This document shows positions 18,955 through 42,310 of a stretch of 64,000 nt of DNA, one piece after another. The notes beneath the pieces were generated by a model. It worked only from the letters and a program-made list of their open reading frames with translations, ran no database searches and had not been told where the DNA came from. The translations under genes were made by a program, and so were the position numbers. The stretch is from Actinokineospora enzanensis DSM 44649 (GTDB lineage: Bacteria > Actinomycetota > Actinomycetes > Mycobacteriales > Pseudonocardiaceae), in NCBI RefSeq assembly GCF_000374445.1, contig NZ_KB894410.1, forward strand, positions 1-64,000. The letters are read 5' to 3'. How positions within the stretch are numbered: the stretch's first letter is position 1; the number at the start of each line of letters is the position of its first letter.

Positions 18955-19686
18955 TCACCAGCCAAGAGGTTTCGTGTAGCCGCCTGTCGGATCGGGCAGC
19001 TGCTGACCCGTGTAGTCGGCTGCGACCACGCTCCGCCACCAGTGGTGACCTGCGCCGCTGGTCGGTCCTCTGGACAGCGCGCCAGCCGTGTAACCACCCC
19101 CGGGGTTGACCACGCCGACCGGGACTCGCTGCCAAGCCTCGTGTACAGGCATCCGCAGATCGCTGTCATTACTGATCACGACAGCCGCGTCCACGGCATC
19201 GGTCAGCACGTCCACCAGGAGGTGGGAGGCGACGTTGACGTCTGAGCCTTTCTCTTCCCACGTTCCGACGGACGCTATGAACGTAGCCGCGGGCTGTGCC
19301 AGTCCCTGAGTCTGGATCATGATTGGCCACGCCGGTCGAGCTGTTACCGGCCTGCCGCGCCGGTCGGGCGTCGCCAGTGGACGCTTGATGACCTTGCTGA
19401 TGTAGGAGCCGAATTCGATGTAGTCGACACTGCGGCTCGCGAGCAGTGCCTTGAGGTAAACGTCTTGATCGGCTGCTCCGCTGGGATTCCCTGCTCCGCT
19501 GATTCGAGCTGTGCAGTAGACGATTCGGTGCACCGTCGCTCCCGGCCATATTTGAGCTTGCTCGGCCACCAACTTGGTTGCCAAGGCGCGAATGTCGAGC
19601 CAGCGCCAGCCGGGTGTGCCCCGACCGCAAGCCTTTCTTCCCCCGTAGTACAGATTGTAGCCGTCGACGTAGATGCCAACTCGCAT
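18955..19686 (-). CDS. NYN-domain (LabA/DUF88-like, PIN-fold) protein
   Basis: A 243-aa protein with a NYN domain, a PIN-like fold that typically cleaves RNA. Acidic metal-site residues are in [16 protein letters not shown] (D8), in [15 protein letters not shown] and in [12 protein letters not shown]. About 40 residues of Gly/Thr-rich tail follow. Base composition is visibly lower in GC than the flanks (one 60-bp stretch at 19441-19500 counts 36 G+C), suggesting transfer. It lies between tRNA-Thr and a partial copy of the same tRNA's 3' end, so it appears to be the cargo of a small island. A tRNA or phage-RNA target is plausible but unproven. Confidence 0.85.
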
Positions 19687-19719
19687 CTGACGACCTTAGC
19701 AACACGAGATCGCGCCCTT

Positions 19720-19740
19720 AAGGCTGCGGGTTCGAGTCCC
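19720..19740 (+). repeat. Putative attR: partial tRNA 3' duplicate
   Basis: AAGGCTGCGGGTTCGAGTCCC repeats tRNA-Thr positions 18692-18712 with one mismatch. The following bases no longer match the acceptor stem, so this is a fragment and not a functional tRNA. Confidence 0.6.
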
Positions 19741-19965
19741 TGCGGTCAGCTTCTGCATCACCGAGACGGTTCCTTTCGGCCCGGGAATACCGTCGGCGTG
19801 TTGGGAAATGCGCGCCCACGAGTTGGTGAATACCCGAGGAGCCTGCCGTTCCCGCCGACTCCACGTACGCGCGCGGACACGCCCCGCACACGGTTCGTGG
19901 CGAGGTGTGCAACGGTGGCCTGTGCTGGGACGATGTGTCCGTCGACCGTCGTAGAGGGTGTGGGG

Positions 19966-20781
19966 GTGCCGGTGGCCGGGGAACCGAGGATTCGGGCCGG
20001 GGCCGCGACCGATGTCGGTCTGGTCCGGGTGGCCAATGAGGACAACTACGTCATCACGGCCAGCGTGTTCGCCGTGGCCGACGGGATGGGCGGGCACGCG
20101 GCCGGGGACGTGGCCAGCGGCCTGGCGGTGGCCGGGCTGGCGCAGCTGGGCACCGAGGGCACGGTGCGGCCGGACGACGTGCGCAGGCACATCGTGCGGC
20201 TCAACGGCGACATCCTGGCCGCCGCCGCGCGCAACCCGGAGCAGGCCGGGATGGGGACCACGGTCACCGGGCTGTGCCTGGTCGACTTCGCCGGGTCCCC
20301 GCACTGGGTGGTGTTCAACGTCGGCGACTCGCGGGTCTACCGCTACGCCGAGAAGGACGTGCCCGGGGTGCGCGTGCTGGAGCAGCTGACCGTGGACCAC
20401 TCCGAGGTGGGCGAGCTGGTGGCGGCGGGGAAGCTGAGCCCCGCCGAGGCCGCCGTCGACCCGCGGCGCAACGTGGTCACCCGGGCCCTCGGGTCGCCCG
20501 CCGCGCCCGAGCCGGACCTGTTCGTGTACCCGCTGACCGCGGGCGAGCGGTTCCTGATCTGCTCCGACGGCCTCACCGGCGAGCTGGACGACGCGGCCAT
20601 CGCGGGCCTGCTCGACCGCGAGGAGGACCCGCGGGACGCCGCCGCGACCCTGGTCCGCGCGGCCGTGGCCGCGGGCGGCCGGGACAACGTGACCACCGTG
20701 GTGGTCGACCACGTCGCCGCCGACCCGGGCGCGGGCGACACTCCCGCCGACGACGAGACCGCGCCGCGACAGGTGGGCTGA
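19966..20781 (+). CDS. PP2C-family Ser/Thr protein phosphatase
   Basis: A cytosolic PPM/PP2C metallophosphatase of about 271 aa. The metal-binding signatures are present in order: the D of GAATDVGLVRVANEDN (about residue 16), VADGMGGHAAGD, GMGTTVTGL, ICSDGLTGELDD and GGRDNVTTVVVD. The start is taken as GTG 19966 with AGAGGG 7 nt upstream; an in-frame ATG at 19933 is the alternative. It is the first of seven plus-strand genes and lies 2 bp from the FHA gene. It is the natural eraser for the kinase two genes downstream. Confidence 0.92.
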   Translation: MPVAGEPRIRAGAATDVGLVRVANEDNYVITASVFAVADGMGGHAAGDVASGLAVAGLAQLGTEGTVRPDDVRRHIVRLNGDILAAAARNPEQAGMGTTVTGLCLVDFAGSPHWVVFNVGDSRVYRYAEKDVPGVRVLEQLTVDHSEVGELVAAGKLSPAEAAVDPRRNVVTRALGSPAAPEPDLFVYPLTAGERFLICSDGLTGELDDAAIAGLLDREEDPRDAAATLVRAAVAAGGRDNVTTVVVDHVAADPGAGDTPADDETAPRQVG

Positions 20782-20783
20782 GC

Positions 20784-22037
20784 ATGGAGGTCCGGTACCG
20801 GCCGGGGCAGTGGGTGGCGGTCACCGGACCGCGAACCTGGCTGCTGGTGGCGGCCGCCGCGGACGCGCCGCTGGTGGCCCGCTGCTGGCAGCTCGCCCGG
20901 ACCGGTGCCGACGAGCTGGAGCTGCTGAACGCGCTGGTCGCCGAGGGCCTGCGCGCGGTGCGCGGGTTCGCCGTGGCGGGCTACGCGGACGGGGTCGGGC
21001 AGGTGGTGGTGCGCGGCGAGGTCACGGTCACCGCCGTCGACGCCGACGGCACCGAACGGGTGGTCACCGCCGAGGGCATGGCCACCTGGGTGGAGTCCCG
21101 GCTGACCGGCTCCCTGGCGCGGCTGCTGTTCACCGGCCCGGTCGCGGACGGGCCCGCGTTGCCGCTGGACAGCGGGGTCGTGCACGCGGGCGCCCTGGAG
21201 ATCATCGTCGGGCAGCGGCTCGCGGGTGTCCGCGCGGAGCAGGCGGACACGCCGATCGAACCCGTCTCCGACGCCGTCGCCCATGACCACCTTTTCGGGG
21301 CCGAGCCGGATCCGATTCCCATCGAGCCGGACCCCATTCCTGTCGAGCCGGATCCGATTCCCGTCGAGAAGCCCGCGCCCATTCCGGTGTCCGCCGACAA
21401 GCCCGCGGAATCCCGCTCCGAACCGGCCCCGGAGATCGGGAACACGACCTTGTTGACGCCGGTGCCCGCCATCCCCGAGGGCACCACCAACGTCATCACC
21501 CACCTGGCCTGGGCCGTGGCCGACGACCCGGGCGCCACCCGGATGCGCGCCACCGGCCCGTCCGCGCCGCCGACGCCGATGGTGGTGCTCGCGATCCGCT
21601 GCGAGTCAGGGCACTGGAACCCGCCGCACGCGCTGTCCTGCCGGGTGTGCGGGTCGGGTGTGCCGCCGCAGCAACCGATCGAGGTGCCGCGCCCCTCGCT
21701 CGGCGTCCTCCGGCTCACCACCGGCGACCTGGTCCAGCTGGACCGGGGTGTGCTGCTCGGCCGACAACCCGACACCGCCGCCGTCGACCAGCCGGTGCGC
21801 CCGCACGTGGTGCGGCTGCGCAGCCCGCTCGGCGACATCTCCCGCAACCACGTCGAGGTCCGCCTGCACGGCTGGCAGGTGCTGGTGGCCGATCTCGGCT
21901 CGCGCAACGGCACCGTGGTGTGCCCGCCCGCCGACCTGCCCTTCGACCTGGTGGCGCGGCAGCCGGTGGAGATCCAGCCGGGCACGGTGGTGAACCTGGC
22001 CACGGACATCGGGTTCGTGTTCGAGGTGACCGGGTGA
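20784..22037 (+). CDS. FHA-domain protein with zinc-ribbon-like segment
   Basis: A 417-aa protein. Residues 1-150 form an unassigned beta-rich domain starting VRYRPGQWVAVTGP. A linker carries three tandem EPDPIP-type repeats (about 174-195). A CxxxH...CxxC segment lies near 273-290 (CESGHWNPPHALSCRVCG), and a phosphothreonine-binding FHA domain occupies about 325-410 (GVLLGRQP, SRNHVEVRLHGWQVLV, DLGSRNGTVV). FHA domains bind phosphothreonine, so this is the likely adaptor for the adjacent kinase. The GTGA overlap with the kinase shows translational coupling, and the phosphatase lies 2 bp upstream. No membrane segment is present. Confidence 0.9.
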   Translation: MEVRYRPGQWVAVTGPRTWLLVAAAADAPLVARCWQLARTGADELELLNALVAEGLRAVRGFAVAGYADGVGQVVVRGEVTVTAVDADGTERVVTAEGMATWVESRLTGSLARLLFTGPVADGPALPLDSGVVHAGALEIIVGQRLAGVRAEQADTPIEPVSDAVAHDHLFGAEPDPIPIEPDPIPVEPDPIPVEKPAPIPVSADKPAESRSEPAPEIGNTTLLTPVPAIPEGTTNVITHLAWAVADDPGATRMRATGPSAPPTPMVVLAIRCESGHWNPPHALSCRVCGSGVPPQQPIEVPRPSLGVLRLTTGDLVQLDRGVLLGRQPDTAAVDQPVRPHVVRLRSPLGDISRNHVEVRLHGWQVLVADLGSRNGTVVCPPADLPFDLVARQPVEIQPGTVVNLATDIGFVFEVTG

Positions 22038-23593
22038 GCCGCCCGGGGCCACCCGAGATCCCCGGTCTGGACCTGGTCAAGTTCCTCGGCTCCGGCGGCT
22101 TCGCCGAGGTCTACCTCTACCGCCAGGACAAGCCCAAGCGCGAGGTCGCGGTCAAGGTGCTCTCGGACGCCGCGCCCGCGGTGCGGTTCACCGAGGAGGC
22201 CGACGCCATGGCCGAACTCGGCGACCACCCCAACATCGCGCAGGTCTTCTTCACCGGGGTGAGCGTCGACGGTCGCTCCTTCCTGGTCATGCCCTATTAC
22301 CCGCGGGCCAACTTCGCCGAGCGGGTGCGCACCGAGCGCGTCGGCGTCGCCGAGGTGCTGCGGGTCGGGGTGCGGATCGCGGGCGCGGTGCAGGCCGCGC
22401 ACGAGGTGGGCATCCTGCACCGGGACATCAAGCCAGCCAACGTGCTGGTCGACCGGCTGGGCGAGCCCCGGCTGGCGGACTTCGGCATCGCGGGCCGGGC
22501 AGGCACCGGGTTCGCCGCCGACGCCGGGGTGCCGATGTCGGTGCCGTGGTCGCCGCCGGAGGTGCTGCGCGGCGAGCCGTCCACCTTCCAGTCCGATGTG
22601 TACTCGCTGGGCGCCACGGTCTGGCACCTGCTGGCAGGCCGGTCGCCGTTCGAGGTGCCCGGCGGGGACAACGGGGTCGACGCGCTGGTCCAGCGGATCG
22701 AGCACACGGACGTGCGGCCGACCGGGCGCCCGGACGTGCCCGCCGAGCTGGAGCGGGTCCTGGCCCGCGCGATGTCCCCGCACCCGGGCGACCGCTACGG
22801 GAGCGCACGGGAGTTCGCCCAGGCGTTGCGCGCGGTCGAACAGAGCGGCGACCTGCCCGCGCAGACGACCGTGCTGCCACCCCCGCGGCCGCGGCCCAAG
22901 CCGGATCCGGTCGAGGAGACCCGGCTGCGCTCGCCCGCCGAACCGGGCGCGGAGACCCGGTTCCGGGCACCGTCCTATGTCGAACCGGCCGAACAGACCC
23001 GCGCGCGGCCGATTGCCCCGATCGGTCCATCGCTCGTTCGTCCATTGGCAACCCCACCGCCCGTGCCGGTCCACTTCGACCCGCCCGAGACCCCGTGGCG
23101 CCTCGAACCGAGCGTGTCGTCGCCCACACCCACCGTCCCGGAGCCGATCATCACGCCCGAACCCGAGCAGCCCGCGCCGCGCCGACCGTGGGCCGCGCTC
23201 GTGCTCGGCGGGGTCGCGCTCGTCGCCGCGGCCGTCACCGGGGCGGTGCTCCTCTCCGGCGGACAGCCGCCCGCGCCGGACCGATCACCGGTGGATCCCG
23301 GTGTGCGAGATCAAAACGCGGGTGGACCTGAGGCGCCGCCGGGCCGACCGACCGTCACCGCGACCAGGTTGACCACCGAGACGATCCGGTTCACCTGGAC
23401 CTATTCGGCCCAGTTCGACTCCGATACGTATGCCTGGCGGGTCGTCGACCAGTCGCGGAACGGAACGGAACCGGAACCGCACGTGGACCTCGCGGCCGCC
23501 CCGGGAACCGAGATCTGCGTTCAGGTCAAGGTCATCCGGCTGGACGGTGGGAACGCGACCGCCGACTGGTCGCCACCCGGGTGTGGAAGGTGA
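22034..23593 (+). CDS. Transmembrane Ser/Thr protein kinase
   Basis: A Hanks-type kinase of 519 aa. The kinase domain covers about 10-275, with glycine loop GSGGFAEVYLY, VAVKVL lysine, HRDIKPANVLV and DFGIAGRA. A Pro-rich juxtamembrane linker with repeated E(E/Q)TR motifs follows. A single transmembrane helix (about 388-408) leads to an external domain of about 110 residues that looks FN3-like (PTVTATRLTTETIRFTWTYS) and ends in Cys-containing sequence. There are no PASTA repeats, so it is not PknB. GTG 22034 overlaps the FHA stop. It should phosphorylate the FHA protein or other locus members in response to an envelope signal. Confidence 0.92.
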   Translation: MSRPGPPEIPGLDLVKFLGSGGFAEVYLYRQDKPKREVAVKVLSDAAPAVRFTEEADAMAELGDHPNIAQVFFTGVSVDGRSFLVMPYYPRANFAERVRTERVGVAEVLRVGVRIAGAVQAAHEVGILHRDIKPANVLVDRLGEPRLADFGIAGRAGTGFAADAGVPMSVPWSPPEVLRGEPSTFQSDVYSLGATVWHLLAGRSPFEVPGGDNGVDALVQRIEHTDVRPTGRPDVPAELERVLARAMSPHPGDRYGSAREFAQALRAVEQSGDLPAQTTVLPPPRPRPKPDPVEETRLRSPAEPGAETRFRAPSYVEPAEQTRARPIAPIGPSLVRPLATPPPVPVHFDPPETPWRLEPSVSSPTPTVPEPIITPEPEQPAPRRPWAALVLGGVALVAAAVTGAVLLSGGQPPAPDRSPVDPGVRDQNAGGPEAPPGRPTVTATRLTTETIRFTWTYSAQFDSDTYAWRVVDQSRNGTEPEPHVDLAAAPGTEICVQVKVIRLDGGNATADWSPPGCGR

Positions 23594-23670: not shown

Positions 23671-26600
23671 GTGGGTTTTATCAGGCGACACCGAACCGCC
23701 ATCGCTTCCTCGGTCGTGCTCGCGATCGGCGCGTCCGCGCTGGTCACCTTCGCGCTGTCGTCGACCGGCTACCCGGTGCGGCAGGTCGACCTCGACGACG
23801 GCGGCATCTGGGTCACCAGCGACCGCGACGGCCTCTTCGGCCGGTTGAACAAGCCCGCGGGCACCCTGGACGCGGCCTTCTACCCGCCCGGCGGCGCCCA
23901 GCAGGCATACCAGCTCGACATCGTGCAGGACGGCGCCGCGGTCGCCGCCCGCGACGAGACCACCGGCCGGTTGTTCCCGGTGGACGTCGCCCGCGCGGTC
24001 GCGTTACCTGAGCAGGGCTTAACCATCCCCGGCGACATGACCCTCGCCATGGGCGGCGGCACGCTCGCCGCGCTCGACCCCAAGACCGGCCGCGTCTGGG
24101 CCACCCGGGTGGACACCCGGGACGGCATGACGAACATGGGCACCCTGGACCCCGCGAACACCCCGGTGGCCACGGTCGACGCCGACGCCGCGCTCGCGGT
24201 GGGCGTGGACGGCACTGTGCGCGCGGTGGCGAAGTCCGGCAAGACCGCCACGATCCGCGCGAACAAGGACAACTTCGAGGACCCCGACTACTCGACGCTG
24301 CCGCATCCGTTGCGCAGCGTGCAGGTCACCGCGGTCGGCGGCGACATGGTCGTGCTGGACGCGGCCGCGGGCAAGGTCGTGCTCCCCGGCGGCCAGGAGG
24401 TCTCCGTCGGCGCGGACGCGAACGCCGCGGTGCAGCAGCCCGGCGCCGGTTCCGACACCGTCGTGCTGGCCACCTCGTCCACCCTGTACTCGGTCGGCAT
24501 CGCCGACGGTCGGGTCGTCGAGCTCTCGCACGCGGGCAAGGGCCCGCCCGCCGCACCGGTACGCCTCGGCGGCTGCGTGCACGCCGCGTGGGCGCGCACC
24601 GACTCCGGGTACGTGCGCTCCTGCGGCGGCGCCCCCGCCACCCCCGGCAACCTGCGCGACGCGCAGGTGCTGGCCAAGCCGATGTTCCGGGTCAACCGCG
24701 GCTCGGTCGTGCTCAACGACCTGGCCAACGGCGCGGTGTGGGACCTGAACACGCAGAAGAAGGTCGACAACTGGTCGGCGGTGAAGCCACCGCCGGTGCA
24801 GAACCCCAGCGACAAGTCCAAGGACGACAAGAACACCGACGCGGTCAAGGACAAGCCGCCGAAGGCCGTGGACGACGACCTCGGCGCCCGGCCCGGCCGC
24901 ACCACCGTGCTGCACGTGCTGGACAACGACTCCGACCCGGCGGGCAACATCCTGTCCATCTCGGCGGTCACCGCCCCGGACAACCCGGCGGTGAAGCTGG
25001 CCATCGCCCCGGACGGGCAGACCGTGCAGATCACCCTGCCGGACACCGTCGTGGACACCCGGTTCAAGTACACCGTCGACGACGGCCAGGGCCTGAGCGC
25101 GACCGCCTCGGTGAACGTCGACGGCCGCGGCCCGGACGACAACAAGCCGCCGGAGCTGCGGCCCGGCTACAAAGAACAGGACTGGAGCGTCGCCTCCGCG
25201 GGCGTGCTGTCCATCCCGGCCCTGGACGACTGGCGCGACTTCGACGGCGACCCGATCGTGCTGGCCGACGCGCACGTGGACGCGGGCGCGGTGACCACCA
25301 CCCCGGCCGGGTTCGTGGAGTACTCGGCGCCGCGTGACGCGGGCACCCGGCGGGTCGACTTCCGGGTCACCGACGGGCACGGCGAGCCGGTGATGGGCCA
25401 GGCCTCGGTGCGCGTGCTGGAGCCGACCGCCACCACCGCGGTGGCCGCGGTGGCCCAGCCGGACGTGGTGCGCGGCCAGGTGGGCCAGCCGATCCAGGTG
25501 CGGCCGCTGGAGAACGACCGCCCCGGCTCCGACCCGACCGACCCGCTGGCCCGGCTGCGGTTGGCGGGTGAGCTGTCCGCGCCGCCGAATGCGGCGGTCA
25601 CCACCGACCTGAAGACCAACCAGGTCACCGTGGTCGTGTCCCGGCCGGGCACGGTGTTCCTGGAGTACTCGGCGGCGTTCGGCAACGCGCCGTTCGCCAA
25701 GGGCAGCATCCGGGTGGACGCCACCCCGGCGCCGTCCGCGCCGCTGCCCCCGGTCGCGGTGCCGGACAGCGCGGTGGTCCGCGCGCAGCTGCCGACGCTG
25801 GTGGACGTGCTGGCCAACGACGTCGACCCGGCGGGCTCGCTGCTGGTCGTGCAGACCGCCGACCCGGTGGTGGACAACCAGCTCAAGGTCGCCATCGTGA
25901 AGGGCAGGTGGCTGCGGATCACCGCGCTCACCCCGACCCTGAGCCCCAACCCGCAGCTGGTCCGCTACACCGTCACCAACGGCCTGACCGGCGCGGTCAC
26001 CGGCGAGGTGTCGGTGACCCAGCTCGGCCCGCCCGCCGACGACACCCCGGTGCCGCGCGACGACTACGCCACCGTGCGCGCGGGCGACTCGGTCGCCATC
26101 CCGGTGCTGGACAACGACACCACGCCAGGCGGCTCGCCGATCTCGTTGCAGGCCAACGTGGAGGGCGCGCCCGCGCGCGGGCAGCTGTCCGTGACCGGCG
26201 TGTCCGACCCGGACCAGCAGGTGGGCACCGCGTACGTGACCGGCAACGTGGTCCGCTACGTGCCGCCCGCCGCCGTGGACGTCCAGACCAGGGTGTCGAT
26301 CGCCTACGTGGCGCTCAACCCCAACGGCGACCAGGCCGTCGGCCACGCGCACGTGACGATCAACCCGGCGCCCACGCCCGCCGTCCCGAACCAGGCGCCC
26401 GCGCCGCAGCCGGTGGAGGCGCGCGCGGTCGCGGGCGACACCATCAAGATCGTCATCCCGACCTCCGGGGTGGACCCGGACGGCGACTCGGTGACCGTCA
26501 CCGGCATCGGCTCGGCCGCCGCGCTCGGCCGGGTGATCGCCATCGGCGCCACCTCGGTCACCTACCAGGCCTACCCGACCAGCGCGGGCACCGACACCTT

Positions 26601-29600
26601 CAACTACGTGGTGACCGACCCGTACGGCAAGTCCGCGCAGTCCACCGTGCGGGTCGCGATCGTGCCGCCCGGCGACCCGCAGCCCGCGGTCGCGGTGGAC
26701 GAGGTGGTCACCGCCGCGCCGGGCGTCCGGCTCGCGGTGGACGTGCTGGCCAACGACCTGCATGCGCCCGGCGACCAGATCCGGGTCGAGCCGCTCGCCG
26801 AGCGGAACCCGAACCTGCCCAAGGACGTCACGCTCAACCCGGACACCGGGCTGATCGAGCTGACCGCGCCGGACCTCACCGGCAAGCCGCTGGTGGTCAT
26901 CTACGCCATCACCGGCGGGTTCGGCGAGCCGTCGCTGGCCAAGCTGACGGTGCGCGGCCAGAAGGACTACAACGTGCCGCCGATCGCGGGCGACACCTAC
27001 GCCGAGCCCCGGCCCGGCGCGGACACCGTCGAGGTGGACGTGCTCGGCGCGGCGGGCGATGTGGACGGTCCGGCCGAGGAGCTGACCGTCACCAAGGTCT
27101 TCGACGACAAGGCCTCCATCGCGGGCGGCAAGATCACCGTGCCGGTGCGCGACCAGCCGCGCACCGTCGCCTACGAGCTGCGCGACGGCGGTGGCGCCAC
27201 CGCGCTGGGCTTCGTGCACATCCCGGCCAACGGCAACGGCGCCCCCTATGCCAAGCGGGACCAGAGCATCGACGTCCCGGTCAACGGCAGCCGCACCGTG
27301 TCCGTGGCGGACTACGTGGTGGACCCGGCGGGCAAGCCGGTGAAACTCACCCTGGCCGACCGGATCTCCGCCTCGCCGTCCATCGGCCTCAAGGCGCACA
27401 ACGACGGCGACCAGAACCTGGTGCTCACCGCCGAGCCGAACTACAACGGCCCGGCCGCGGTCACCTTCGAGGTCACCAACGGCACCGGGGTCACCGACGG
27501 CACCACCGCCTACATCACGGTGCCCGTGCAGGTGGGCCCGGACGTGCCGATCCTGCGCTGCCCCACCGGCACCATCACGCTGATCGCGGGCGGCACCACC
27601 ATCGGCATGGACGTCACCTCGGTCTGTCACGTGTGGACGGCCAAGCCGGGCGGCGCGGCCGACCTCAAGTACACCGCCCGCTGGCAGAACGAGGCCGAGG
27701 GTGTCGACGTGGCTGGCGAAGGCACCCGCACCATCCGGCTCACCGCCTCCGGCGCGGCCCGGCCGGGTGCCAACGGCGTGCTGGAGATCGGTGTGCAGGG
27801 CTCGGAGGGCGCGCCGACCCCGTTCTCGGTCAAGGTCATCGCCGCGCCCGCGCCGTCGGTGTCGCCGGTGACCGTGGACGGCATCAAGGCAGGCGAGACC
27901 GCCGAGGTGAACCTGGCCGCCTACGTGCGCTCCCGGCTGCGCGACCCGGTCGTGTCCGTGGTGTCTGTGCGCCAGCTGGACGGCATGGCCGCATCGTCCA
28001 CTTCGGACGGCGCGACCGTGCGGATCACCCCGGGCGGCGACTCGCACGGCGTGATGAACTTCGAGGTGACGGTCACCGACGTGGCCGACACCAGCCGCAA
28101 CGACCGCAAGGTCCCCGGCCGCATCACGCTGCGCGTGCTCGGCACGCCGGACGCGCCCGGCGCCCCGGTGCCCGGCCGCACCACGCTGAGCAAGGTCGTG
28201 GAGCTGTCCTGGACCACCCCGGCCAACAACGGCGCCCCGATCGAGGGCTACGAGGTCGACTGGGACGGCGGCAGCCAGGCCTGCGCGGCCTCCCCGTGCT
28301 CGATCAACGGGCTGACCAACGGCCGCCAGTACACGTTCACCGTGAAGGCCCGCAACCTGGTCGGCTGGAGCAAGCCGAGCGTGGGCTCCGCACCGTCCAC
28401 ACCGGACGAGGTGCCCGGCGCGGTCGGCGGGCTCACCGCCTCCCAGCCGCGCGACGGCGCGGTCCAGCTGAACTGGACCGAGCCGCACAACGAGGGCAGC
28501 GAGATCCTTCGCTACGAGATCACCTGGACCGGCGGCGGCCGAACCACCGCGAGCGGCGGCGCCACCGGCGCCACCGCGACCGGGCTGGACAACGACACCG
28601 TCTACACCTTCACCGTCGTCGCGGTGAACGCCCAGGGCCCCGGCCCCGCGGCGACCACCACCGGCCAGGCCGCGGGCGTGCCCGCCCGGCCCGCCGCGCC
28701 CACCTTCACCGCGGCCCAGTCGGCCGACTCGTCCTCGCGCGCGGTACAGGTGAGCTGGAACGCGGTCGGCCCCAACGGCCCCGGCCCGGTCACCTACACG
28801 GTCAACCGCTCCGGCGGCGGCCGCGACAAGGTGGTGTGCGCCAACGTGTCCGGCACCTCGTGCGCCGACGACGGCCTCGCGAACGACGGCACGATCTACA
28901 CCTACACCGTCACCGCGACCAACTCCGCGCCCGGCGACAACCACACCTCCCCGCCCAGTCCGGGCGCGGAGATGGAGGCCACCGCCACCCCGGACCCGTT
29001 CACCTCGTCGTTCAAGGCCGAGGCGACCGGCGTGGACGGCCAGGCGAAGATCAGCTTCGACGCGCCCGCCTCACACGGCCGCAGCAACACTGTCACCTGC
29101 ACCTGGGGCGGCGGCAACAGCTGCGGTACCTGGAACTACGACCCAGAGGGCCGAAACAACGTCGAGTACACGGTCAACGGCCTGCCCAACGGCAAGGAGA
29201 CCGCCATCTCGCTGCGCACCTGCAACGGCAGCGGCGGCGGTGCCTACGCGGGCGACCCGTGCAACGCGCCCGGCACCGCGTCGGTCACCACCTTCGGCCC
29301 GATGCAGGACCTGCAGGTGGAGCTGACCACCACCAGCCAGGACGTCAACATCGACGTCAGCGTGGACCCGAACGGCAAGCCCGCGCAGGTCCGGGTGCAG
29401 AGCGCGAAGAACGACCAGACCTTCACCACCGAGGTGGGCGTCTGGAGCAAGAAGCTCGCCGACAACGACATCGGTTACGACACCACCGACACGGTGACCG
29501 TGACCGTGACGTCGCCGGGCAGGCCAACGCTGACCATGACGAAGACGATCAAGACCGGTCCGCCGCCGCCCACCCCCGAGGTCATCGTCAGCAAGGGCAA

Positions 29601-29856
29601 CACGTGCGGCGGGGCCTACCCGTGCAGCAGCACCGACCCGAACGCGTGCACCGACGCCAGCTGCGCGTTCATCACGGTGCAGACGAAGTTCTTCCTGACC
29701 AACGTGACCTGCTCGTTCACCGCGGACAACCCGGGCAACTTCGTCAACGTGAACATGGGGCCCAACCAGACCAAGCAGACCACCAACTTCTACGGCCATC
29801 CGGGCACGAAGGTCTACGTCACCTGCGGCAGCGTCCGCGGCGAGCTCGTCTGGTGA
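23671..29856 (+). CDS. Giant membrane-anchored Ig-like / fibronectin type III repeat protein
   Basis: A 2061-aa surface protein. An N-terminal signal/anchor helix (about residues 11-30) is followed by a propeller-like region to about 370 with DGGIWVTSDRDG-type motifs. A Lys/Asp-rich linker leads to about eight bacterial Ig/cadherin-like repeats (about 400-1400), marked by V-x-DNDSDPAG, LVDVLANDVDPAG, IPVLDNDTTPGG and similar. FN3 modules follow (about 1490-1780). The C-terminal part has paired Cys and Gly/Asn-rich loops and ends in GELVW. GTG 23671 follows AGGGGA. It lies 77 bp after the kinase and 73 bp before MoxR. There is no LPxTG motif. A role as an extracellular adhesin or envelope sensor is inferred from architecture. 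Confidence 0.88.
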   Translation: MGFIRRHRTAIASSVVLAIGASALVTFALSSTGYPVRQVDLDDGGIWVTSDRDGLFGRLNKPAGTLDAAFYPPGGAQQAYQLDIVQDGAAVAARDETTGRLFPVDVARAVALPEQGLTIPGDMTLAMGGGTLAALDPKTGRVWATRVDTRDGMTNMGTLDPANTPVATVDADAALAVGVDGTVRAVAKSGKTATIRANKDNFEDPDYSTLPHPLRSVQVTAVGGDMVVLDAAAGKVVLPGGQEVSVGADANAAVQQPGAGSDTVVLATSSTLYSVGIADGRVVELSHAGKGPPAAPVRLGGCVHAAWARTDSGYVRSCGGAPATPGNLRDAQVLAKPMFRVNRGSVVLNDLANGAVWDLNTQKKVDNWSAVKPPPVQNPSDKSKDDKNTDAVKDKPPKAVDDDLGARPGRTTVLHVLDNDSDPAGNILSISAVTAPDNPAVKLAIAPDGQTVQITLPDTVVDTRFKYTVDDGQGLSATASVNVDGRGPDDNKPPELRPGYKEQDWSVASAGVLSIPALDDWRDFDGDPIVLADAHVDAGAVTTTPAGFVEYSAPRDAGTRRVDFRVTDGHGEPVMGQASVRVLEPTATTAVAAVAQPDVVRGQVGQPIQVRPLENDRPGSDPTDPLARLRLAGELSAPPNAAVTTDLKTNQVTVVVSRPGTVFLEYSAAFGNAPFAKGSIRVDATPAPSAPLPPVAVPDSAVVRAQLPTLVDVLANDVDPAGSLLVVQTADPVVDNQLKVAIVKGRWLRITALTPTLSPNPQLVRYTVTNGLTGAVTGEVSVTQLGPPADDTPVPRDDYATVRAGDSVAIPVLDNDTTPGGSPISLQANVEGAPARGQLSVTGVSDPDQQVGTAYVTGNVVRYVPPAAVDVQTRVSIAYVALNPNGDQAVGHAHVTINPAPTPAVPNQAPAPQPVEARAVAGDTIKIVIPTSGVDPDGDSVTVTGIGSAAALGRVIAIGATSVTYQAYPTSAGTDTFNYVVTDPYGKSAQSTVRVAIVPPGDPQPAVAVDEVVTAAPGVRLAVDVLANDLHAPGDQIRVEPLAERNPNLPKDVTLNPDTGLIELTAPDLTGKPLVVIYAITGGFGEPSLAKLTVRGQKDYNVPPIAGDTYAEPRPGADTVEVDVLGAAGDVDGPAEELTVTKVFDDKASIAGGKITVPVRDQPRTVAYELRDGGGATALGFVHIPANGNGAPYAKRDQSIDVPVNGSRTVSVADYVVDPAGKPVKLTLADRISASPSIGLKAHNDGDQNLVLTAEPNYNGPAAVTFEVTNGTGVTDGTTAYITVPVQVGPDVPILRCPTGTITLIAGGTTIGMDVTSVCHVWTAKPGGAADLKYTARWQNEAEGVDVAGEGTRTIRLTASGAARPGANGVLEIGVQGSEGAPTPFSVKVIAAPAPSVSPVTVDGIKAGETAEVNLAAYVRSRLRDPVVSVVSVRQLDGMAASSTSDGATVRITPGGDSHGVMNFEVTVTDVADTSRNDRKVPGRITLRVLGTPDAPGAPVPGRTTLSKVVELSWTTPANNGAPIEGYEVDWDGGSQACAASPCSINGLTNGRQYTFTVKARNLVGWSKPSVGSAPSTPDEVPGAVGGLTASQPRDGAVQLNWTEPHNEGSEILRYEITWTGGGRTTASGGATGATATGLDNDTVYTFTVVAVNAQGPGPAATTTGQAAGVPARPAAPTFTAAQSADSSSRAVQVSWNAVGPNGPGPVTYTVNRSGGGRDKVVCANVSGTSCADDGLANDGTIYTYTVTATNSAPGDNHTSPPSPGAEMEATATPDPFTSSFKAEATGVDGQAKISFDAPASHGRSNTVTCTWGGGNSCGTWNYDPEGRNNVEYTVNGLPNGKETAISLRTCNGSGGGAYAGDPCNAPGTASVTTFGPMQDLQVELTTTSQDVNIDVSVDPNGKPAQVRVQSAKNDQTFTTEVGVWSKKLADNDIGYDTTDTVTVTVTSPGRPTLTMTKTIKTGPPPPTPEVIVSKGNTCGGAYPCSSTDPNACTDASCAFITVQTKFFLTNVTCSFTADNPGNFVNVNMGPNQTKQTTNFYGHPGTKVYVTCGSVRGELVW

Positions 29857-29929: not shown

Positions 29930-30895
29930 ATGACAGCCACACCGGAGCAGGCGCAGCTGTTCGCGCAGACCTTCGACCGGCTGGTCGCGAACGTCAGCGT
30001 CGCGATCGTGGGCAAGGAGCACGCGGTCCGCCTGGCGTTGACCTGCCTGCTGTCCGAGGGGCACATCCTGCTGGAGGACTACCCGGGCACCGGCAAGACG
30101 ATGCTGGCCAAGGCGCTGGCGCGGTCGGTGCAGGGCACCAACTCGCGTATCCAGTTCACCCCGGACCTGCTGCCGTCGGATGTCACCGGCGTGACGATCT
30201 ACGACCAGCGGCGGCAGGAGTTCGAGTTCCATCGCGGCCCGGTGTTCCACTCCATCGTGCTGGCCGACGAGATCAACCGGGCCTCGCCGAAGACCCAGTC
30301 GGCGCTGCTGGAGGTCATGGAGGAGGGCCGGGTCACCGTCGACGGCGTGTCGCACGAGGTGGGCAAGCCGTTCATGGTGATCGCCACGCAGAACCCGGTC
30401 GAGCAGGCGGGCACCTACCGGCTGCCGGAGGCGCAGCTGGACCGGTTCTTGATGAAGACCAGCATCGGCTACCCCGACCACACCGCCACCGTGGCGCTGC
30501 TGTCCGCGGCGTCGGTGCGCGACCGGTCGGCCGCGGTGCAGCCGGTGATCAGCTCCCAGGTCGTGTCCCAGCTGGCCGCCACCGCGGACCGTACGCACGT
30601 GGACGCGGCCGTGCTGTCCTACGTGACCCGGATCGCCGAGGCGTCGCGCGAGCACGAGCACGTCCGGCTGGGTGTGTCCGTGCGCGGCTGCCTGTCCTAC
30701 GTGCGCTGCGCCAAGACCTGGGCGATGACCAAGGGCCGCAACTTCGTCACCCCCGAGGACGTCAAGGAGCTGGCGCTGCCCGTGCTCGGGCACCGGGTGC
30801 TGCTCAACGCGCAGGCCCAGTTCGACGGCGTCTCGGTGACCGACGTGATCGAGAAGCTGCTGGCGGACGTCGCGCCGCCGGTCGCCAGGGGCTGA
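29930..30895 (+). CDS. MoxR-family AAA+ ATPase
   Basis: A 321-aa cytosolic AAA+ chaperone-like ATPase of the MoxR family. Walker A is DYPGTGKTMLAK near residue 55, Walker B VLADEINRASPKTQSALLE near 110, and the sensor IATQNPVEQAGTY. MoxR proteins are thought to remodel or activate partner complexes and are nearly always next to a DUF58 gene, as here (3-bp gap). This one belongs to the kinase-surface protein locus. Confidence 0.93.
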   Translation: MTATPEQAQLFAQTFDRLVANVSVAIVGKEHAVRLALTCLLSEGHILLEDYPGTGKTMLAKALARSVQGTNSRIQFTPDLLPSDVTGVTIYDQRRQEFEFHRGPVFHSIVLADEINRASPKTQSALLEVMEEGRVTVDGVSHEVGKPFMVIATQNPVEQAGTYRLPEAQLDRFLMKTSIGYPDHTATVALLSAASVRDRSAAVQPVISSQVVSQLAATADRTHVDAAVLSYVTRIAEASREHEHVRLGVSVRGCLSYVRCAKTWAMTKGRNFVTPEDVKELALPVLGHRVLLNAQAQFDGVSVTDVIEKLLADVAPPVARG

Positions 30896-30898
30896 TCC

Positions 30899-32089
30899 GT
30901 GGACGGTCTGCTGGCGGCGGTGCGCGCGGTGACCCCGATGGGGGTCACCGTCGCGGTCTGCTCGGTGCTCGCCTGGATCTCCGGCGCCGTGCTCGGCTGG
31001 TCCGAGCTGGTGGTTGCCGGGGCGGCAGGCGTGCTGGCGTTCCTGGCCTGCCTCGGCTGGGCGGTCGGTCGGGCGGCCCTGGAGGTGCGGTTCCGGCTGG
31101 AGAAGGAGCGCGTGGTCACCGGCCAGCCCGCGGGCTGCGTTGTCGAGGTGGTCGGCAGGCGCTCCGGCAACCGGCTGCTGGCCATGGAGCTGGAGCTGTC
31201 GGTGGACGACGAGGTGCATGTGGTGGAGGTGCCCGGCCTGGCCGCCGGGCAGACGCACCGCGAGCTGTTCCCGATCCCCACTGAGCGCCGCGGCGTGATC
31301 GCGGTCGGCCCGGCGGTGACCGTGCGCGGCGACCCGCTGGGCATGCTGCGCCGCACGGTGACCTGGGGCGAGGCGCGCGAGCTGTTCGTGCACCCGGTGA
31401 CCGTCGCGTTGGGACCGCTGGGCGCGGGCATGCTGCGCGACCTGGAGGGCTACACCACCACCGACCTGTCCACCAGCGACCTGGCCTTCCACACCCTGCG
31501 CGAGTTCGCCCCCGGCGACGACCGCAGGCACATCCACTGGCGCTCCTCGGCGAAGGTCGCGAACGCGGGCACCGGCGGCGCCAACTTCCTGGTCCGGCAG
31601 TACCTGGACACCCGGCGCGCCCGGCTGGTCATCGCGGTCGACGGCGACCCGACGGCCTACCCGGACCCGGACGAGGACTTCGAGACCGCCATCTCCGTCG
31701 CCGGTTCGCTGGCGCTGCGCGCGACCGAGGACGAGATCGACCTGACGCTGTTCGCCGCGGGCCAGGTGGTGCACGACGCCACCGCCCAGCGCGCGCTCGA
31801 CGGCCTGTCCCGGGTCACCCCGGTGACCATGGGCCTGGACGACCTCACCAGCCGCGCCGCGCGGCTCGCCCCGGACGCGACCGTGGTCGTGGTGGTGGCG
31901 GGCGGCAACCGCAGCTACGCCGAACTGCTGCGCGCCTGCGGGCAGTTCCCGTCCGACATCCGCCGCGCGGCCATCACCGTGTCCGCCGCCGGGCGGGCCG
32001 GGATCACCGAGGGCCCCGGCCTGACCGTGGCCGCGGTGCGCGACCTGACCGACCTGCGGGCCGTGCTCGCCGGAGGACCGCTGGCATGA
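30899..32089 (+). CDS. DUF58 membrane protein
   Basis: A 396-aa protein with two transmembrane segments near the N-terminus (about 10-60). The conserved DUF58 block LREFAPGDDRRHIHWRSSAK lies near 205 and is followed by a VWA-like alpha/beta domain (RLVIAVDGDPTAY). DUF58 proteins are the standard partner of MoxR ATPases; their biochemical role is undefined. It starts with GTG 3 bp after moxR and overlaps the transglutaminase-fold gene by 4 nt. Confidence 0.9.
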   Translation: MDGLLAAVRAVTPMGVTVAVCSVLAWISGAVLGWSELVVAGAAGVLAFLACLGWAVGRAALEVRFRLEKERVVTGQPAGCVVEVVGRRSGNRLLAMELELSVDDEVHVVEVPGLAAGQTHRELFPIPTERRGVIAVGPAVTVRGDPLGMLRRTVTWGEARELFVHPVTVALGPLGAGMLRDLEGYTTTDLSTSDLAFHTLREFAPGDDRRHIHWRSSAKVANAGTGGANFLVRQYLDTRRARLVIAVDGDPTAYPDPDEDFETAISVAGSLALRATEDEIDLTLFAAGQVVHDATAQRALDGLSRVTPVTMGLDDLTSRAARLAPDATVVVVVAGGNRSYAELLRACGQFPSDIRRAAITVSAAGRAGITEGPGLTVAAVRDLTDLRAVLAGGPLA

Positions 32090-34542
32090 CCAAGCCCGAC
32101 AAGAAGAAGCCCGACGCCAAGGCGGGCACCAGGAAGCCCGACGCCCGTAAGGCCGAGGCGAGAAAGTCCGACGCGCGGAAATCCGAGGCCAGGAAGGCCG
32201 GTGCGGGGAAGACCGACGTCAAGCCCGCCAGGTCCGCGCGGCCTGCCTCGCACGCGAAGGGCAAGGGTTCCCGCTCGATCGTGCCGACGCGCGCGGACCT
32301 GGCCGACGCGGCGTGGCTGTCGGTGCTGTTCACCGTGGCCCTGGCCGGGTTCACCACCAGCTACACCGGCTGGTCGTTCCTCTGGGTCGGGCTCGCGGGC
32401 CTCGGCCTCGGCCTGCTGGTCGGGCACGTGGCCAACGTGCTGCGACAGCCGCTGATCACCGTGGCCGCGCTGACCGTGGCGGTGTTCTTCCTGCTCGGCA
32501 GCGCGGTCGTGATGCGCGACCGCGCGGTGGCAGGCTTCCTGCCCGGCCCGGACGCCCTCACCGGCCTGGCTCGGTCCAGTGTGGACAGTTGGAAACAGCT
32601 GCTGACCACGCTGCCGCCGGTCGACGCGACCGGCCCGCTGCTGGTGATCCCGTACATCCTGGGCCTGCTGTGCGGCGCGGGCGGTCTCACCATGGCGCGC
32701 CGGGTGCGGGTCAGTGCCGCGCCGGTGTTCGCCCCGGCGGCCGTGCTGGTCGCGGTCGTCCTGTTGGGCACGGCTTCGCCGACGCTTCCCCTGGTGCAGG
32801 GCGGGGTCTTCGCCGCCGGCGCGCTGGCGTGGACGGCCGTCCGCGCCCGACGCCGCCGTCGGCAGCTGCGCGACGGCAACCGCCGGGCCACGCGCGTGTT
32901 CACCGCCGCCGCCCTGATCGGCGCGACCGGCGCGATCGCCGTCGTGGCCGGCCCGGTCCTGCCCGGCGCGGGCGGCCACCGCACGGTGCTGCGCGACTAC
33001 ATCACGCCGCCGTTCGACCTCAACGCCTACGCCAGCCCGCTGGTCGGTTTCCGGAAGTACACCAAGGATGCCAACCAGCTGTGGGACCAGACCCTGTTCA
33101 CGGTCAAGGGCCTGCCCGAGGGCGCCCTGGTCCGCATCGCCACCCTGGACGACTACACCGGCACGGTCTGGGGCGCGGGTCCGGGCGACCAGGCCACCAC
33201 CACGGGCGCCAGGAAGAACGGCTTCCAGCGCGTCGGCTCGCGCATCCCGTCCACCGTGGACGGCCCACGGGCCACCGTGGAGATCGCCGTCGGCGCCGCC
33301 TACGCCACCGCCGACGACGTCAATGCCTGGCTGCCCACCCCGGGCTCACCCACCGCGATCCGCTTCACCGGCGACACCGCCGCCGCGCACGCGGACAGCT
33401 TCCGTTTCAACCTGGCCACCAACGCGGGCATCGTCGCCGACCGCCTGCGCACCGGCGACAAGTACACGGTCGACACGATCGTGGACACCGTGCAGGTCCC
33501 CGAGGACCCGCAGCCGTTCGGCCGCTCCACCCTGTCCTCGTCGTCGTACACGTTCGTCGCCGCCAAGGCGAGCACCTGGACCGGCAAGGCCACCGACCTC
33601 GGCGCCCGACTGAGGGCCGTCGCCGCCTACCTCCGCGACCACGGCGCCTACAGCGACGGCGGCCCGGGGGAGACGGAGTACCTCCCCGGCCACAGCGTCG
33701 GCAGGCTGACGAACTTCCTCAACGCCCAACGCCCGGTCGGCGACGACGAACAGTACGCGTCGGCCTTCGCCCTGATCGCCAACCAGCTGGGCATGCCCGC
33801 CCGCGTCGTCCTGGGCGCCAAGCCGGGCACGGACGGCGTGGTCCGGGGTGAACAGATCCAGGCCTGGGTGGAGATCCACCTGACCGACGGCCGCTGGGCG
33901 CAGATCATGAACACCGAGTTCATGCCGGACCGGTCGAAGAAACCCGACCGCGTCCCCCCGGAGCAGTTCGAGAACACCGACGCCTCGATCGTCCCACCCC
34001 CCAACACCGTCCACCCGCCAAGCTCCCTCACCGACTCCAGCCGCGTCGACCCCAACGTCGGCCGCACCCCGTCGACCCAGGGCACCAGCATCTGGGACGG
34101 CCTCCCCGGCTGGCTGATCACCACCCTCACCTGGGGCGGCCCCCCGGTGCTTCTGGTCGTACTGGTCTGCACGGTGATCATCGGCGGCAAGGCCCTTCGC
34201 CGCCGCAGAAGGAGAAGGCGCGGTGTCCCGGCCACCAGGGTCGCGTCCGGCTGGCAGGAGATCATCGACCGCGCCCGAGACCTGGGCACCCCGGTCCCGG
34301 CAGGCCTGACCCGCCCAGAACAAGCCACCGTCCTGGGCAACGAGGGCACCCTGACCCTGGCCAGAGCCGCCGACGCCACCGTCTTCGGCCCCATCGACCC
34401 CACCGACGCCACCGCGACCCACTTCTGGACCTCGGTCGACGACGTCCGTAAACAACTGGGCACCAACGTAAGTCGCCTCCGCCGCCTACGCGCCGCCCTC
34501 AGCCTGCGAACCCTGCGTCCCCCACGCCCGCTGACCTCGTAG
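32086..34542 (+). CDS. Transglutaminase-fold membrane protein lacking the catalytic triad
   Basis: An 818-aa integral membrane protein. The N-terminal ~65 residues are a Lys/Arg/Ala/Asp-rich repeat. A DUF3488-like block of about six transmembrane helices (70-290) and a transglutaminase-like external domain (about 480-630) follow, then one more helix near 690 and a cytosolic tail. Aligned to the family pattern, the catalytic Cys of GxCEQFASA is Asp (D554, GDDEQYASA), the His of HAWVE is Gln (Q592, IQAWVEI), and the Asp of WVPVDPT is Met (M608, WAQIMNT). All three triad residues are gone while the surrounding fold motifs remain. It is probably a pseudoenzyme for binding or assembly. It is the last gene of the seven-gene locus. 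Confidence 0.88.
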   Translation: MTKPDKKKPDAKAGTRKPDARKAEARKSDARKSEARKAGAGKTDVKPARSARPASHAKGKGSRSIVPTRADLADAAWLSVLFTVALAGFTTSYTGWSFLWVGLAGLGLGLLVGHVANVLRQPLITVAALTVAVFFLLGSAVVMRDRAVAGFLPGPDALTGLARSSVDSWKQLLTTLPPVDATGPLLVIPYILGLLCGAGGLTMARRVRVSAAPVFAPAAVLVAVVLLGTASPTLPLVQGGVFAAGALAWTAVRARRRRRQLRDGNRRATRVFTAAALIGATGAIAVVAGPVLPGAGGHRTVLRDYITPPFDLNAYASPLVGFRKYTKDANQLWDQTLFTVKGLPEGALVRIATLDDYTGTVWGAGPGDQATTTGARKNGFQRVGSRIPSTVDGPRATVEIAVGAAYATADDVNAWLPTPGSPTAIRFTGDTAAAHADSFRFNLATNAGIVADRLRTGDKYTVDTIVDTVQVPEDPQPFGRSTLSSSSYTFVAAKASTWTGKATDLGARLRAVAAYLRDHGAYSDGGPGETEYLPGHSVGRLTNFLNAQRPVGDDEQYASAFALIANQLGMPARVVLGAKPGTDGVVRGEQIQAWVEIHLTDGRWAQIMNTEFMPDRSKKPDRVPPEQFENTDASIVPPPNTVHPPSSLTDSSRVDPNVGRTPSTQGTSIWDGLPGWLITTLTWGGPPVLLVVLVCTVIIGGKALRRRRRRRRGVPATRVASGWQEIIDRARDLGTPVPAGLTRPEQATVLGNEGTLTLARAADATVFGPIDPTDATATHFWTSVDDVRKQLGTNVSRLRRLRAALSLRTLRPPRPLTS

Positions 34543-40506: not shown

Positions 40507-41025
40507 ATGTCCGGGGAAACGCACGACATCCACATCGCCGAACCGTCTACATCGGACGGGTCGGAGCTGTGGCGGATCGCCCGCGATTCGCGCACGCTCG
40601 ACCTGAACTCCTCCTACGCCTACCTGCTGTGGTGCCGCGACTTCGCCGACACCTCCGCGATCGCCTGGCGGGCGGGCCGCCCGGTGGGGTTCGTCATCGG
40701 TTTCGTCCGCCCGACCGAGCCGGAGACCGTGGTGGTCTGGCAGATCGCCGTCGACGGCGACCAGCGCGGCCTGGGGGTCGCGGGCAGACTCCTCGACCAC
40801 CTGCTCGACCGGCTCGCGCCGCGCGGCGTCCGGCACCTGGAGACCACGATCTCGCCCGGCAACGACGCCTCCATCGCGCTGTTCCAGGCGCTGGCCCGGC
40901 GCCGCGGCGCGGATCTGCGCCGTGCCGGGCTGTTCGCCCCCGCGCACTTCCCCGACGACCACGAGGCGGAGGACCTGTACCGCATCGGTCCGCTCGTCCC
41001 CGCGCGCGAACGCGTGCCCGCCTGA
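40507..41025 (+). CDS. ectA: L-2,4-diaminobutyrate N-gamma-acetyltransferase
   Basis: EctA acetylates diaminobutyrate, the second step of ectoine synthesis. It is a 172-aa GNAT protein with family signatures SRTLDLNSSYAYLLWCRDF and the acetyl-CoA loop DQRGLGVAGRLLDHLL, then NDASIALFQALARRRGA. The spacing to ectB is 25 bp. The 198 bp upstream hold the operon promoter; no operator was recognised. Confidence 0.95.
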   Translation: MSGETHDIHIAEPSTSDGSELWRIARDSRTLDLNSSYAYLLWCRDFADTSAIAWRAGRPVGFVIGFVRPTEPETVVVWQIAVDGDQRGLGVAGRLLDHLLDRLAPRGVRHLETTISPGNDASIALFQALARRRGADLRRAGLFAPAHFPDDHEAEDLYRIGPLVPARERVPA

Positions 41026-41050
41026 CACGACTGGGGAAAGGGAGATCTCC

Positions 41051-42310
41051 GTGAGTGTGTTCGAGACCCTGGAGTCCGAGGTCCGCAGCTACAGCCGCGG
41101 CTGGCCGGTGGTGTTCGACCGGGCCGTCGGCGCGCACCTCTATGACGAGATGGGAAAGTCCTATGTGGACTTCTTCGCCGGCGCGGGCGCGCTGAACTAC
41201 GGCCACAACAACCCGGTGCTGAAACAGGCCGTGCTCGACTACATCATGCGCGACGGCGTCACCCACGCGCTGGACATGCAGACCGTGGCCAAACGGGACT
41301 TCCTTGAGTCCTTCCGGGACCTGGTGCTGACCCCGCGCGAGCTCGACTACAAGGTCATGTTCCCCGGGCCCGCGGGCGCCAACGCCGTCGAGGCCGCGCT
41401 CAAACTGGCCCGCAAGATCACCGGCCGGGAGTCGGTCGTCAACTTCACCAACGCCTTCCACGGCATGACCCTGGGCGCGCTCTCGGTCACCGGCAACTCG
41501 ATGAAGCGCGGCGGCGCGGGCATCCCGCTGGTGCACGCCACCCCGATGCCCTACGACAACTACCTCGACGGCCAGGTGCCGGACTTCCTCTGGCTGGAAC
41601 GCCTGCTCGCCGACAGCGGCAGTGGCCTCAACGAGCCCGCCGCGGTCATCGTGGAGACCGTGCAGGGCGAGGGCGGCATCAACGCCGCCCGCGTGGAATG
41701 GCTGCGCGGCCTGGCGGAACTGTGTCAGCGGCACGGGATCCTGCTGATCGTCGACGACGTGCAGATGGGCTGCGGCCGCACCGGCCCGTTCTTCAGCTTC
41801 GAGGTCGCGGGCATCCGGCCGGACATCGTCTGCCTGTCCAAGTCGATCGGCGGCTTCGGCTTGCCGCTCGCGCTCACCCTGATCCGCCCCGAGCTGGACG
41901 TCTGGGAGCCCGGCGAGCACAACGGCACCTTCCGCGGCATCAACCCCGCCTTCATCGCCGCCACCGAGGCGCTGCGCGCCTACTGGGCCGACGACGGCCT
42001 GGAGAAGGGCACGCTGGCCAAGGGCGAGCAGGTGGAACGGGTCCTGGTCGGCATCGCCGAGCGGTACCCGGCCGCCGACCTGCGTGCCAAGGGCCGCGGC
42101 CTGGCCAGGGGCCTGCGCTTCCCGGACGGCGCCACCGCGGGCGCGGTGTGCCGGGCCGCGTTCGAGCGCGGCCTGCTGATGGAGACCTCCGGCCCGGACG
42201 GCGAGGTCGCCAAGGTCATGCCGCCGCTGACCATCACCGACGACGAGCTGGACGCGGGCCTGGCCATCCTCACCGACGCGGTGGCCACCACCCTCGACCG
42301 AACCGAGTGA
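41051..42310 (+). CDS. ectB: Diaminobutyrate-2-oxoglutarate transaminase
   Basis: EctB makes L-2,4-diaminobutyrate from aspartate semialdehyde. It is a PLP-dependent class III aminotransferase of 419 aa. The start is GTG 41051 ([19 protein letters not shown]), with GGGAG upstream. Motifs are [15 protein letters not shown], the cofactor Asp in [13 protein letters not shown], and the Lys of [12 protein letters not shown]. It is the first pathway enzyme but the second gene. Confidence 0.95.

Follow-up and report, generated by a model that had tools for sequence, protein, structure and literature searches.

A PFNA-type operon of Actinokineospora encodes a TgpA-like membrane protein with a predicted transglutaminase fold that lacks the catalytic triad

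The window analyzed here is a stretch of 64,000 nucleotides from Actinokineospora enzanensis DSM 44649, a member of a free-living actinomycete genus. Within it, genes for a kinase, a giant FN3 protein, a MoxR ATPase, a DUF58 protein, and the membrane protein Tgm follow one another on one strand in the order known from PFNA clusters, and the last gene of this series is the tgm of a PFNA-type operon (Table 1). The assignment is also supported by homology to the Bifidobacterium-family loci described below. The accessory PP2C and FHA genes of PFNA clusters are present as well and lie upstream. HRD and DFG motifs were recognized by eye in the kinase, whose true start, likewise judged by eye, is probably near 22050. 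The MoxR protein exceeds the bpMoxR cut-off, and AAA_3 scores far better. In the ternary MoxR-vWA-beta-propeller systems, a vWA protein fused to a beta-propeller adjoins MoxR; a family scan reported no vWA or propeller family for the neighbors that it covered. Further along the window, two ORFs at 40507-42310 resemble, by eye, the acetyltransferase and aminotransferase genes of ectoine biosynthesis.

Table 1 Features of the PFNA-type operon and of the tgm product
Feature	Position in window	Strand	Basis
ORF with PP2C phosphatase domain (about 20059-20589)	19465..20781	+	E 6.6e-09
ORF with FHA domain (about 21828-21998)	20274..22037	+	E 4.8e-06
Ser/Thr kinase, Pkb2-like (domain about 22076-22801)	21647..23593	+	Pkinase 1.4e-34
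Giant protein, 2061 aa, Big_9 and FN3 domains	23671..29856	+	Pfam
MoxR-type AAA+ ATPase	29930..30895	+	AAA_3 3.7e-63
DUF58 protein	30899..32089	+	Pfam E 0.0026 (below cut-off) and operon position
tgm, TgpA-like membrane protein with pseudo-transglutaminase ectodomain	32086..34542	+	818 aa ORF
Transglut_core domain, residues 497-605	33574..33900	+	Pfam E 1.7e-14, model and fold match
G535-H536-x3-R540, near-invariant PFNA-type Tgm motif	33688..33705	+	Conservation counts
D553-D554-E555-Q556, pseudo-active-site motif	33742..33753	+	Conservation comparison
D554 at catalytic Cys place	33745..33747	+	Cys in 0/154 PFNA-type rows vs 56/56 controls
Q592 at catalytic His place	33859..33861	+	His in 58/154 PFNA-type rows vs 56/56 controls
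M608 at catalytic Asp/Glu place	33907..33909	+	D/E in 69/154 PFNA-type rows vs 56/56 controls

In the tgm product, Pfam detected a TgpA_N region (E 3.2e-12) together with the Transglut_core domain, and the combination of the two within one membrane protein is the TgpA-type architecture. An NCBIfam scan of the same product returned no family above the cut-off. Within the source genus, the named loci L095-L098 encode proteins with 75-80% identity to it, and a full-length orthologue was retrieved from 10 of 16 Actinokineospora genomes and from none of the other six. The protein begins with a repetitive tail of about 60 residues rich in Lys, Ala, Arg, and Asp (window 32086-32270), which is absent from the orthologues and gives a weak HC2 match (E 0.034).

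A profile–profile alignment with 16 active actinobacterial TgpA proteins, among them the intact paralogue of the same genome, places D554 in the column of the catalytic Cys, Q592 in that of the His, and M608 in that of the Asp (E 2.1e-43). The preliminary description of this DNA had proposed the same three replacements by eye, and the present alignment, made independently of it, arrives at the same columns. It had also described the neighboring motifs as intact, which is borne out by the EQYAS, AWVE, and G-P-x-R-V stretches common to the tgm product and active TgpA. An alternative alignment with a Cys elsewhere in the pocket was looked for and none was found; the only cysteines of the protein, C196 and C695, both fall outside the modeled ectodomain (residues 296-652), leaving no Cys that could act as a displaced nucleophile in the pocket. 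A relocated triad is thus ruled out on two grounds, the Cys-free modeled ectodomain and the agreement of the independent alignment. Nor is the triad kept by the orthologues: in the 10 Actinokineospora proteins (that of the window and nine more), Cys and the acid are found in none and His in one (L014). The loss is not a matter of chance, since all 56 active control relatives keep Cys and His and carry Glu (49) or Asp (7) as the third residue; these controls comprise 40 hand-picked among the best-scoring matches listed, together with L001, 14 further loci, and L241. The Cys-His-Asp/Glu triad of a TgpA-type enzyme is absent from the tgm product, which, judged from its sequence, is almost certainly no transglutaminase of known mechanism.

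The fold is kept in the predicted structure. Residues 296-652 were modeled with AlphaFold2 from 58 sequences (mean pLDDT 88.9, pTM 0.86). Among solved structures, the closest to the model is the Pseudomonas aeruginosa TgpA periplasmic domain (6g4h; Z 20.7, rmsd 3.9 over 248 residues), and the next structural match outside TgpA, 3isr, is far below it at Z 8.8. Foldseek alone was less convincing than this VIA alignment (TM 0.51, rmsd 7.2 against TgpA), and a different angle between the two domains may be the reason. In model numbering, where position i corresponds to residue i+295, helix 259-272 begins with D554, strand 296-304 contains Q592, and M608 comes just after strand 309-312. These are the places at which the transglutaminase fold is expected to carry Cys, His, and Asp, respectively.

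That all three catalytic residues are gone could also mean that the gene is decaying and has no function. The pseudo-core (residues 496-615) nevertheless has dN/dS values of 0.13-0.30 across seven pairs of Actinokineospora orthologues, and in 7/7 of these pairs the value is below that of the rest of the ectodomain (296-495). This purifying selection indicates that tgm is maintained rather than decaying; the listed genus orthologues contain no stops, and the gene order is conserved. We reject decay on the dN/dS values and leave it scarcely any probability. Overall, the tgm product combines a predicted transglutaminase fold with the absence of the nucleophile and with purifying selection, as is characteristic of a pseudo-transglutaminase.

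The loss of the nucleophile is not confined to this genus. A profile seeded by eight Cys-less Tgm sequences and limited to residues 64-498 was run against 394 genomes of the class; this region excludes the triad, so that retrieval was not chosen by the triad, although the seeds were Cys-less all the same. The profile matched 51 genomes at 67 places besides the window, 60 of which were read, the seven weakest (E 1.4e-13 or worse) being left out. No Cys occurs at the nucleophile column in these 60 rows, nor in the 73 that result when relatives from the genus and the order are included. A further 77 named loci were collected with two peptide patterns, of whose 216 confirmed stretches the best 80 were kept; they are biased toward Cys-less proteins because one pattern contains GD[DQ]EQ, and nine of them have a twin of more than 97% identity in the other sets. 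Six PFNA-type rows were added, four in genomes of the same phylum and two as further copies in known genomes. With L093 and L094 assigned to a second Cys-less set, the PFNA-type set amounts to 154 rows, 139 of them distinct at 97%. Column 554 of the distinct rows holds Asp in 92, Gln in 22, Glu and Ala in nine each, Gly in six, and Ser in one; His is found at 592 in 52 rows, an acid at 608 in 66, and both in 24. Loss of the triad nucleophile is thus the rule across the PFNA-type Tgm samples read. As a separate observation, two cysteines occur between residues 496 and 612 in a Tgm subfamily made up of L082-L088, L090-L092, L216, and L217; in the rows inspected, the pair lies within a loop insertion between 579 and 588 and perhaps forms a disulfide.

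A quick, unrooted tree was built from 90 rows hand-chosen from 221, without Bifidobacterium-family rows. In it, the 41 PFNA-type rows cluster together (SH-aLRT 98), as do the 38 active rows (94), and 11 further Cys-less rows fall between the two groups. The Cys column needs one change on this tree, whereas the His column needs 11 and the acid column 10. The catalytic triad is general among TgpA and other transglutaminases, and the direction of change on the unrooted tree is taken from this generality. The simplest history would be a single loss of the nucleophile followed by repeated erosion of the His and the acid, and it would account for the 24 of 139 distinct relatives that lack the Cys alone. 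On such a history, Actinokineospora is at the far end of the putative erosion, with all three triad residues gone. The preliminary description had presented the joint loss of the three residues as the salient event; this is true of the window protein, but the event that defines the family would be the loss of Cys, which happened once, while the His and the acid were lost repeatedly.

The 11 intermediate rows make up the second Cys-less set (L093, L094, and L232-L240), in which the Cys is replaced by Ser, Ala, Glu, or Thr and the His by Phe, Leu, Asp, or Ser, with His itself in one row. A neighbor with fn3 domains stands beside MoxR in four of the 11 loci (L093, L094, L235, and L236; that of L094 is below the Pfam cut-off). 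These proteins adjoin MoxR-DUF58 and are much shorter than the PFNA giant, having 723-920 aa and one to three fn3 stretches. The other seven loci were examined by phmmer, with Pfam applied to some neighbors of two of them. Such fn3 neighbors raise the possibility that dead Tgm was linked to a large surface protein before PFNA itself arose. One member of the set, L232 (4099-15403), is a second Cys-less TgpA relative of the same genome as the window; its Cys is replaced by Glu and its His by Asp, and its Asp is kept. The L232 operon encodes an FHA-FtsK protein, a Ser/Thr kinase, MoxR, and DUF58, and no FN3 giant was detected in it.

Conservation has not only been lost from the PFNA-type proteins. 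H536 is present in 151 of the 154 PFNA-type rows, as is R540, and position 553 holds Asp or Asn in 150 of 154, in place of the aromatic residue found there in 56/56 controls. E555 and Q556 are invariant in the 139 distinct rows and more fixed than in the active relatives; E555 is not universal, as L258 has Asp. When thinned sets of 56 PFNA-type and 43 active rows were compared, conservation fell most at columns that include His592, G603, 581, 566, 608 (the acid), and 524, where every active row has Tyr, and the biggest gains included H536, G588, R540, G535, S523, and E555, with Q556 gaining too. The PFNA-type set is less conserved overall (mean entropy 1.87 vs 1.53 in the controls), and this greater divergence accounts for part of the loss at the catalytic columns.

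These near-invariant residues bear on what the domain might do instead. The positions H536, D/N553, E555, and R540 are either new or less variable than in active relatives and could in principle constitute a novel active site on the ancestral fold. Against such a new catalysis, position 554 is not fixed and offers no recurrent nucleophile, and H536 also occurs in 10 of the 56 active controls; we regard it as highly improbable. H536 was in fact considered as a residue specific to the PFNA type, a proposal weakened by those controls and by its presence in all 11 rows of the second Cys-less set; R540 holds better, with one of 56 and none of 11, respectively. Alternatively, the dead domain might be a purely structural scaffold, a folded spacer or protein–protein platform at the membrane whose pocket is empty. 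Protein 4.2, a structural membrane-skeleton protein of the erythrocyte and itself a pseudo-transglutaminase, is among the weak fold matches of the model (7uzs, Z 5.9), and the variability of position 554 (Asp, Gln, Glu, Ala, Gly, or Ser) would agree with an idle site. An empty pocket, however, leaves unexplained why E555 and Q556 became invariant beyond the active relatives and why new near-invariant residues arose, so that we think a pure scaffold unlikely. The shift in conservation is what a re-used region would look like, and an idle scaffold is not obviously in need of it. Moreover, the newly conserved residues lie next to and before the old nucleophile, which fits binding. The suggestion in the preliminary description that the protein was selected for a non-enzymatic role, for which it had named envelope peptide or glycan as possible ligands, gains from the loss of the triad, the kept fold, the purifying selection, and these residues, and we carry it forward as a prediction.

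The genomic neighborhood, which the preliminary description had missed, points to the system in which such binding would take place. FN3 genes, defined as same-strand homologues of the window FN3 protein, were counted where 5.5 kb or more of sequence precedes the tgm frame. The FN3 giant was present upstream in 53 of 55 profile-set loci, 69 of 70 named loci, and all six added phylum or copy loci. Beside active TgpA it was found at none of 54 control loci, 47 of which have the 5.5 kb of room; the 54 neighborhoods derive from the 56 controls, L241 having been examined separately and the short locus L001 left out. MoxR adjoins 52 of the same 54. A kinase in the same direction was recorded at 27 of 58 profile-set, 39 of 77 named, and three of six added loci, counts that are lower than those of FN3 and that include stretches ending short of the expected kinase position. 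A strict rule by which a dead Tgm always has an FN3 neighbor, and the reverse, was rejected, as it fails at L079, L081, and L162, which are Cys-less PFNA-type loci with room upstream and no FN3 gene, and in the second Cys-less set; Tgm need not, accordingly, always serve the giant. At L048, L054, L058, and L075, two large FN3-like frames stand in tandem upstream of MoxR.

This linkage also speaks to a further alternative, that Tgm tunes the active TgpA of the cell by binding its substrates or partners and leaving them unprocessed. A TgpA of the same genome (L001) does retain its Cys, His, and Asp, yet the gene neighborhood ties Tgm to the FN3 system, and we judge the regulatory role improbable.

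On balance, Tgm is probably a non-catalytic membrane receptor or scaffold with a predicted ligand-binding pocket, coupled to a kinase-switched MoxR-DUF58 machine for a surface protein. By analogy with TgpA, the membrane part would carry the ectodomain on the outer face. A single loss of the nucleophile would have preceded the spread of the PFNA-type family, and the His and the acid would then have drifted, while the same domain would have gained the near-invariant G-H-x3-R and the fixed E-Q beside the old nucleophile. The pocket may bind a ligand, with a peptidoglycan peptide and a strand from the FN3 giant as candidates, and Tgm may couple this ligand to the MoxR-DUF58 machine inside. The kinase, the phosphatase, and the FHA protein would switch this machine, leading to regulated assembly, anchoring, or release of the surface protein. 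If this reading is right, experiments on PFNA should seek a binding partner of Tgm and not a cross-linking product, and free-living actinomycetes could be used for PFNA work without a host. In addition, Tgm would be a clean case of pseudoenzyme evolution, with a single nucleophile loss, frequent losses of the other two triad residues, and a shift of conservation to new residues on one and the same fold.

A wider reading is possible, and we put it forward tentatively, as less likely than not. PFNA-type Tgm proteins, those of bifidobacteria included, may be ancient re-tooled transglutaminase folds. In that case, one nucleophile loss would have been followed by a new conserved pocket (GHxxxR and [D/N]xEQ), which would recognize an envelope ligand and either signal via a kinase-controlled MoxR-DUF58 machine or assemble with that machine, the one that handles giant FN3/Ig surface proteins across Actinomycetota. 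If this were true, the PFNA system would be a general envelope machine and any dialogue with host immunity a late use of it.

The closest known system is the PFNA cluster of Bifidobacterium, given in passages of two reports as pkb2-fn3-aaa-atp-duf58-tgm with optional prpC and fha (PMC8430577, PMC6803598). In B. longum, it is described in part of the latter as transcribed as one operon, with a kinase that phosphorylates MoxR (PMC6803598). The window locus agrees with it in its five genes and in their order. However, the PP2C and FHA genes lie downstream in B. longum, according to the section on that cluster (PMC8430577), and upstream in Actinokineospora.

An order-level search gave a family of small genomes that we take to be that of Bifidobacterium on the strength of a 16S genus probe. 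With at most one mismatch, the probe matched 14 of 17 tested genomes of this family and none of 15 from a second small-genome family; of the 15 genomes in which Tgm was read (from 16 with a match), 13 match the probe, nine of them exactly. All 15 Bifidobacterium-family Tgm proteins lack the Cys, the His, and the acid. Each reads GDSEQYA, with Ser for Cys; the His column holds Thr, Gln, Glu, or Ala (7/5/2/1), and the acid column holds Tyr in 14 and His in one. L257, outside this count of 15, has Glu, Thr, and Tyr at the three columns (by eye). All 15 tgm genes stand beside a kinase, FN3, MoxR, and DUF58, in the published order in the six loci with coordinates, and the counts of the FN3 giant upstream and of the same-direction kinase are both 15/15. 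Likewise, the five loci of the second small-genome family lack the Cys, two of them keeping His and Asp; all five have the FN3 giant and two a same-direction kinase.

Since the 15 family members are all triad-less, the Tgm of the published Bifidobacterium operon very probably lacks the triad too. TGM is described there as an enzyme, a transglutaminase and presumably a cysteine protease, in the passage concerned (PMC8430577), and the PFNA operon is described in part of another report as found only in bifidobacteria (PMC10688814). Both statements look wrong against the sequences of the present analysis, with which the enzyme label and the bifidobacteria-only range conflict; the window copy comes from Actinokineospora. 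We found no earlier statement of Tgm inactivity in the literature searched, which includes few subscription papers.

Among other transglutaminase folds, erythrocyte protein 4.2 (EPB42) is called catalytically inactive in a passage of PMC10318531 and resembles Tgm in fold, as in the weak match to 7uzs noted above; it is eukaryotic and not TgpA-like, however, and serves as an analogue of Tgm for scaffolding only. The MRP-type MoxR-DUF58-transglutaminase operons share with PFNA the membrane protein family and the MoxR neighbor but differ in that their triad is intact (56/56) and the FN3 giant is absent (0/54). P. aeruginosa TgpA (PA2873; PDB 6g49/6g4h) has the TgpA_N and Transglut_core regions and the ectodomain fold found in Tgm. 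For this protein, the relevant part of PMC3507681 describes a conserved catalytic triad and a purified domain assayed for transglutaminase activity. Where TgpA carries Cys, His, and Asp, the Tgm of the window has Asp, Gln, and Met.
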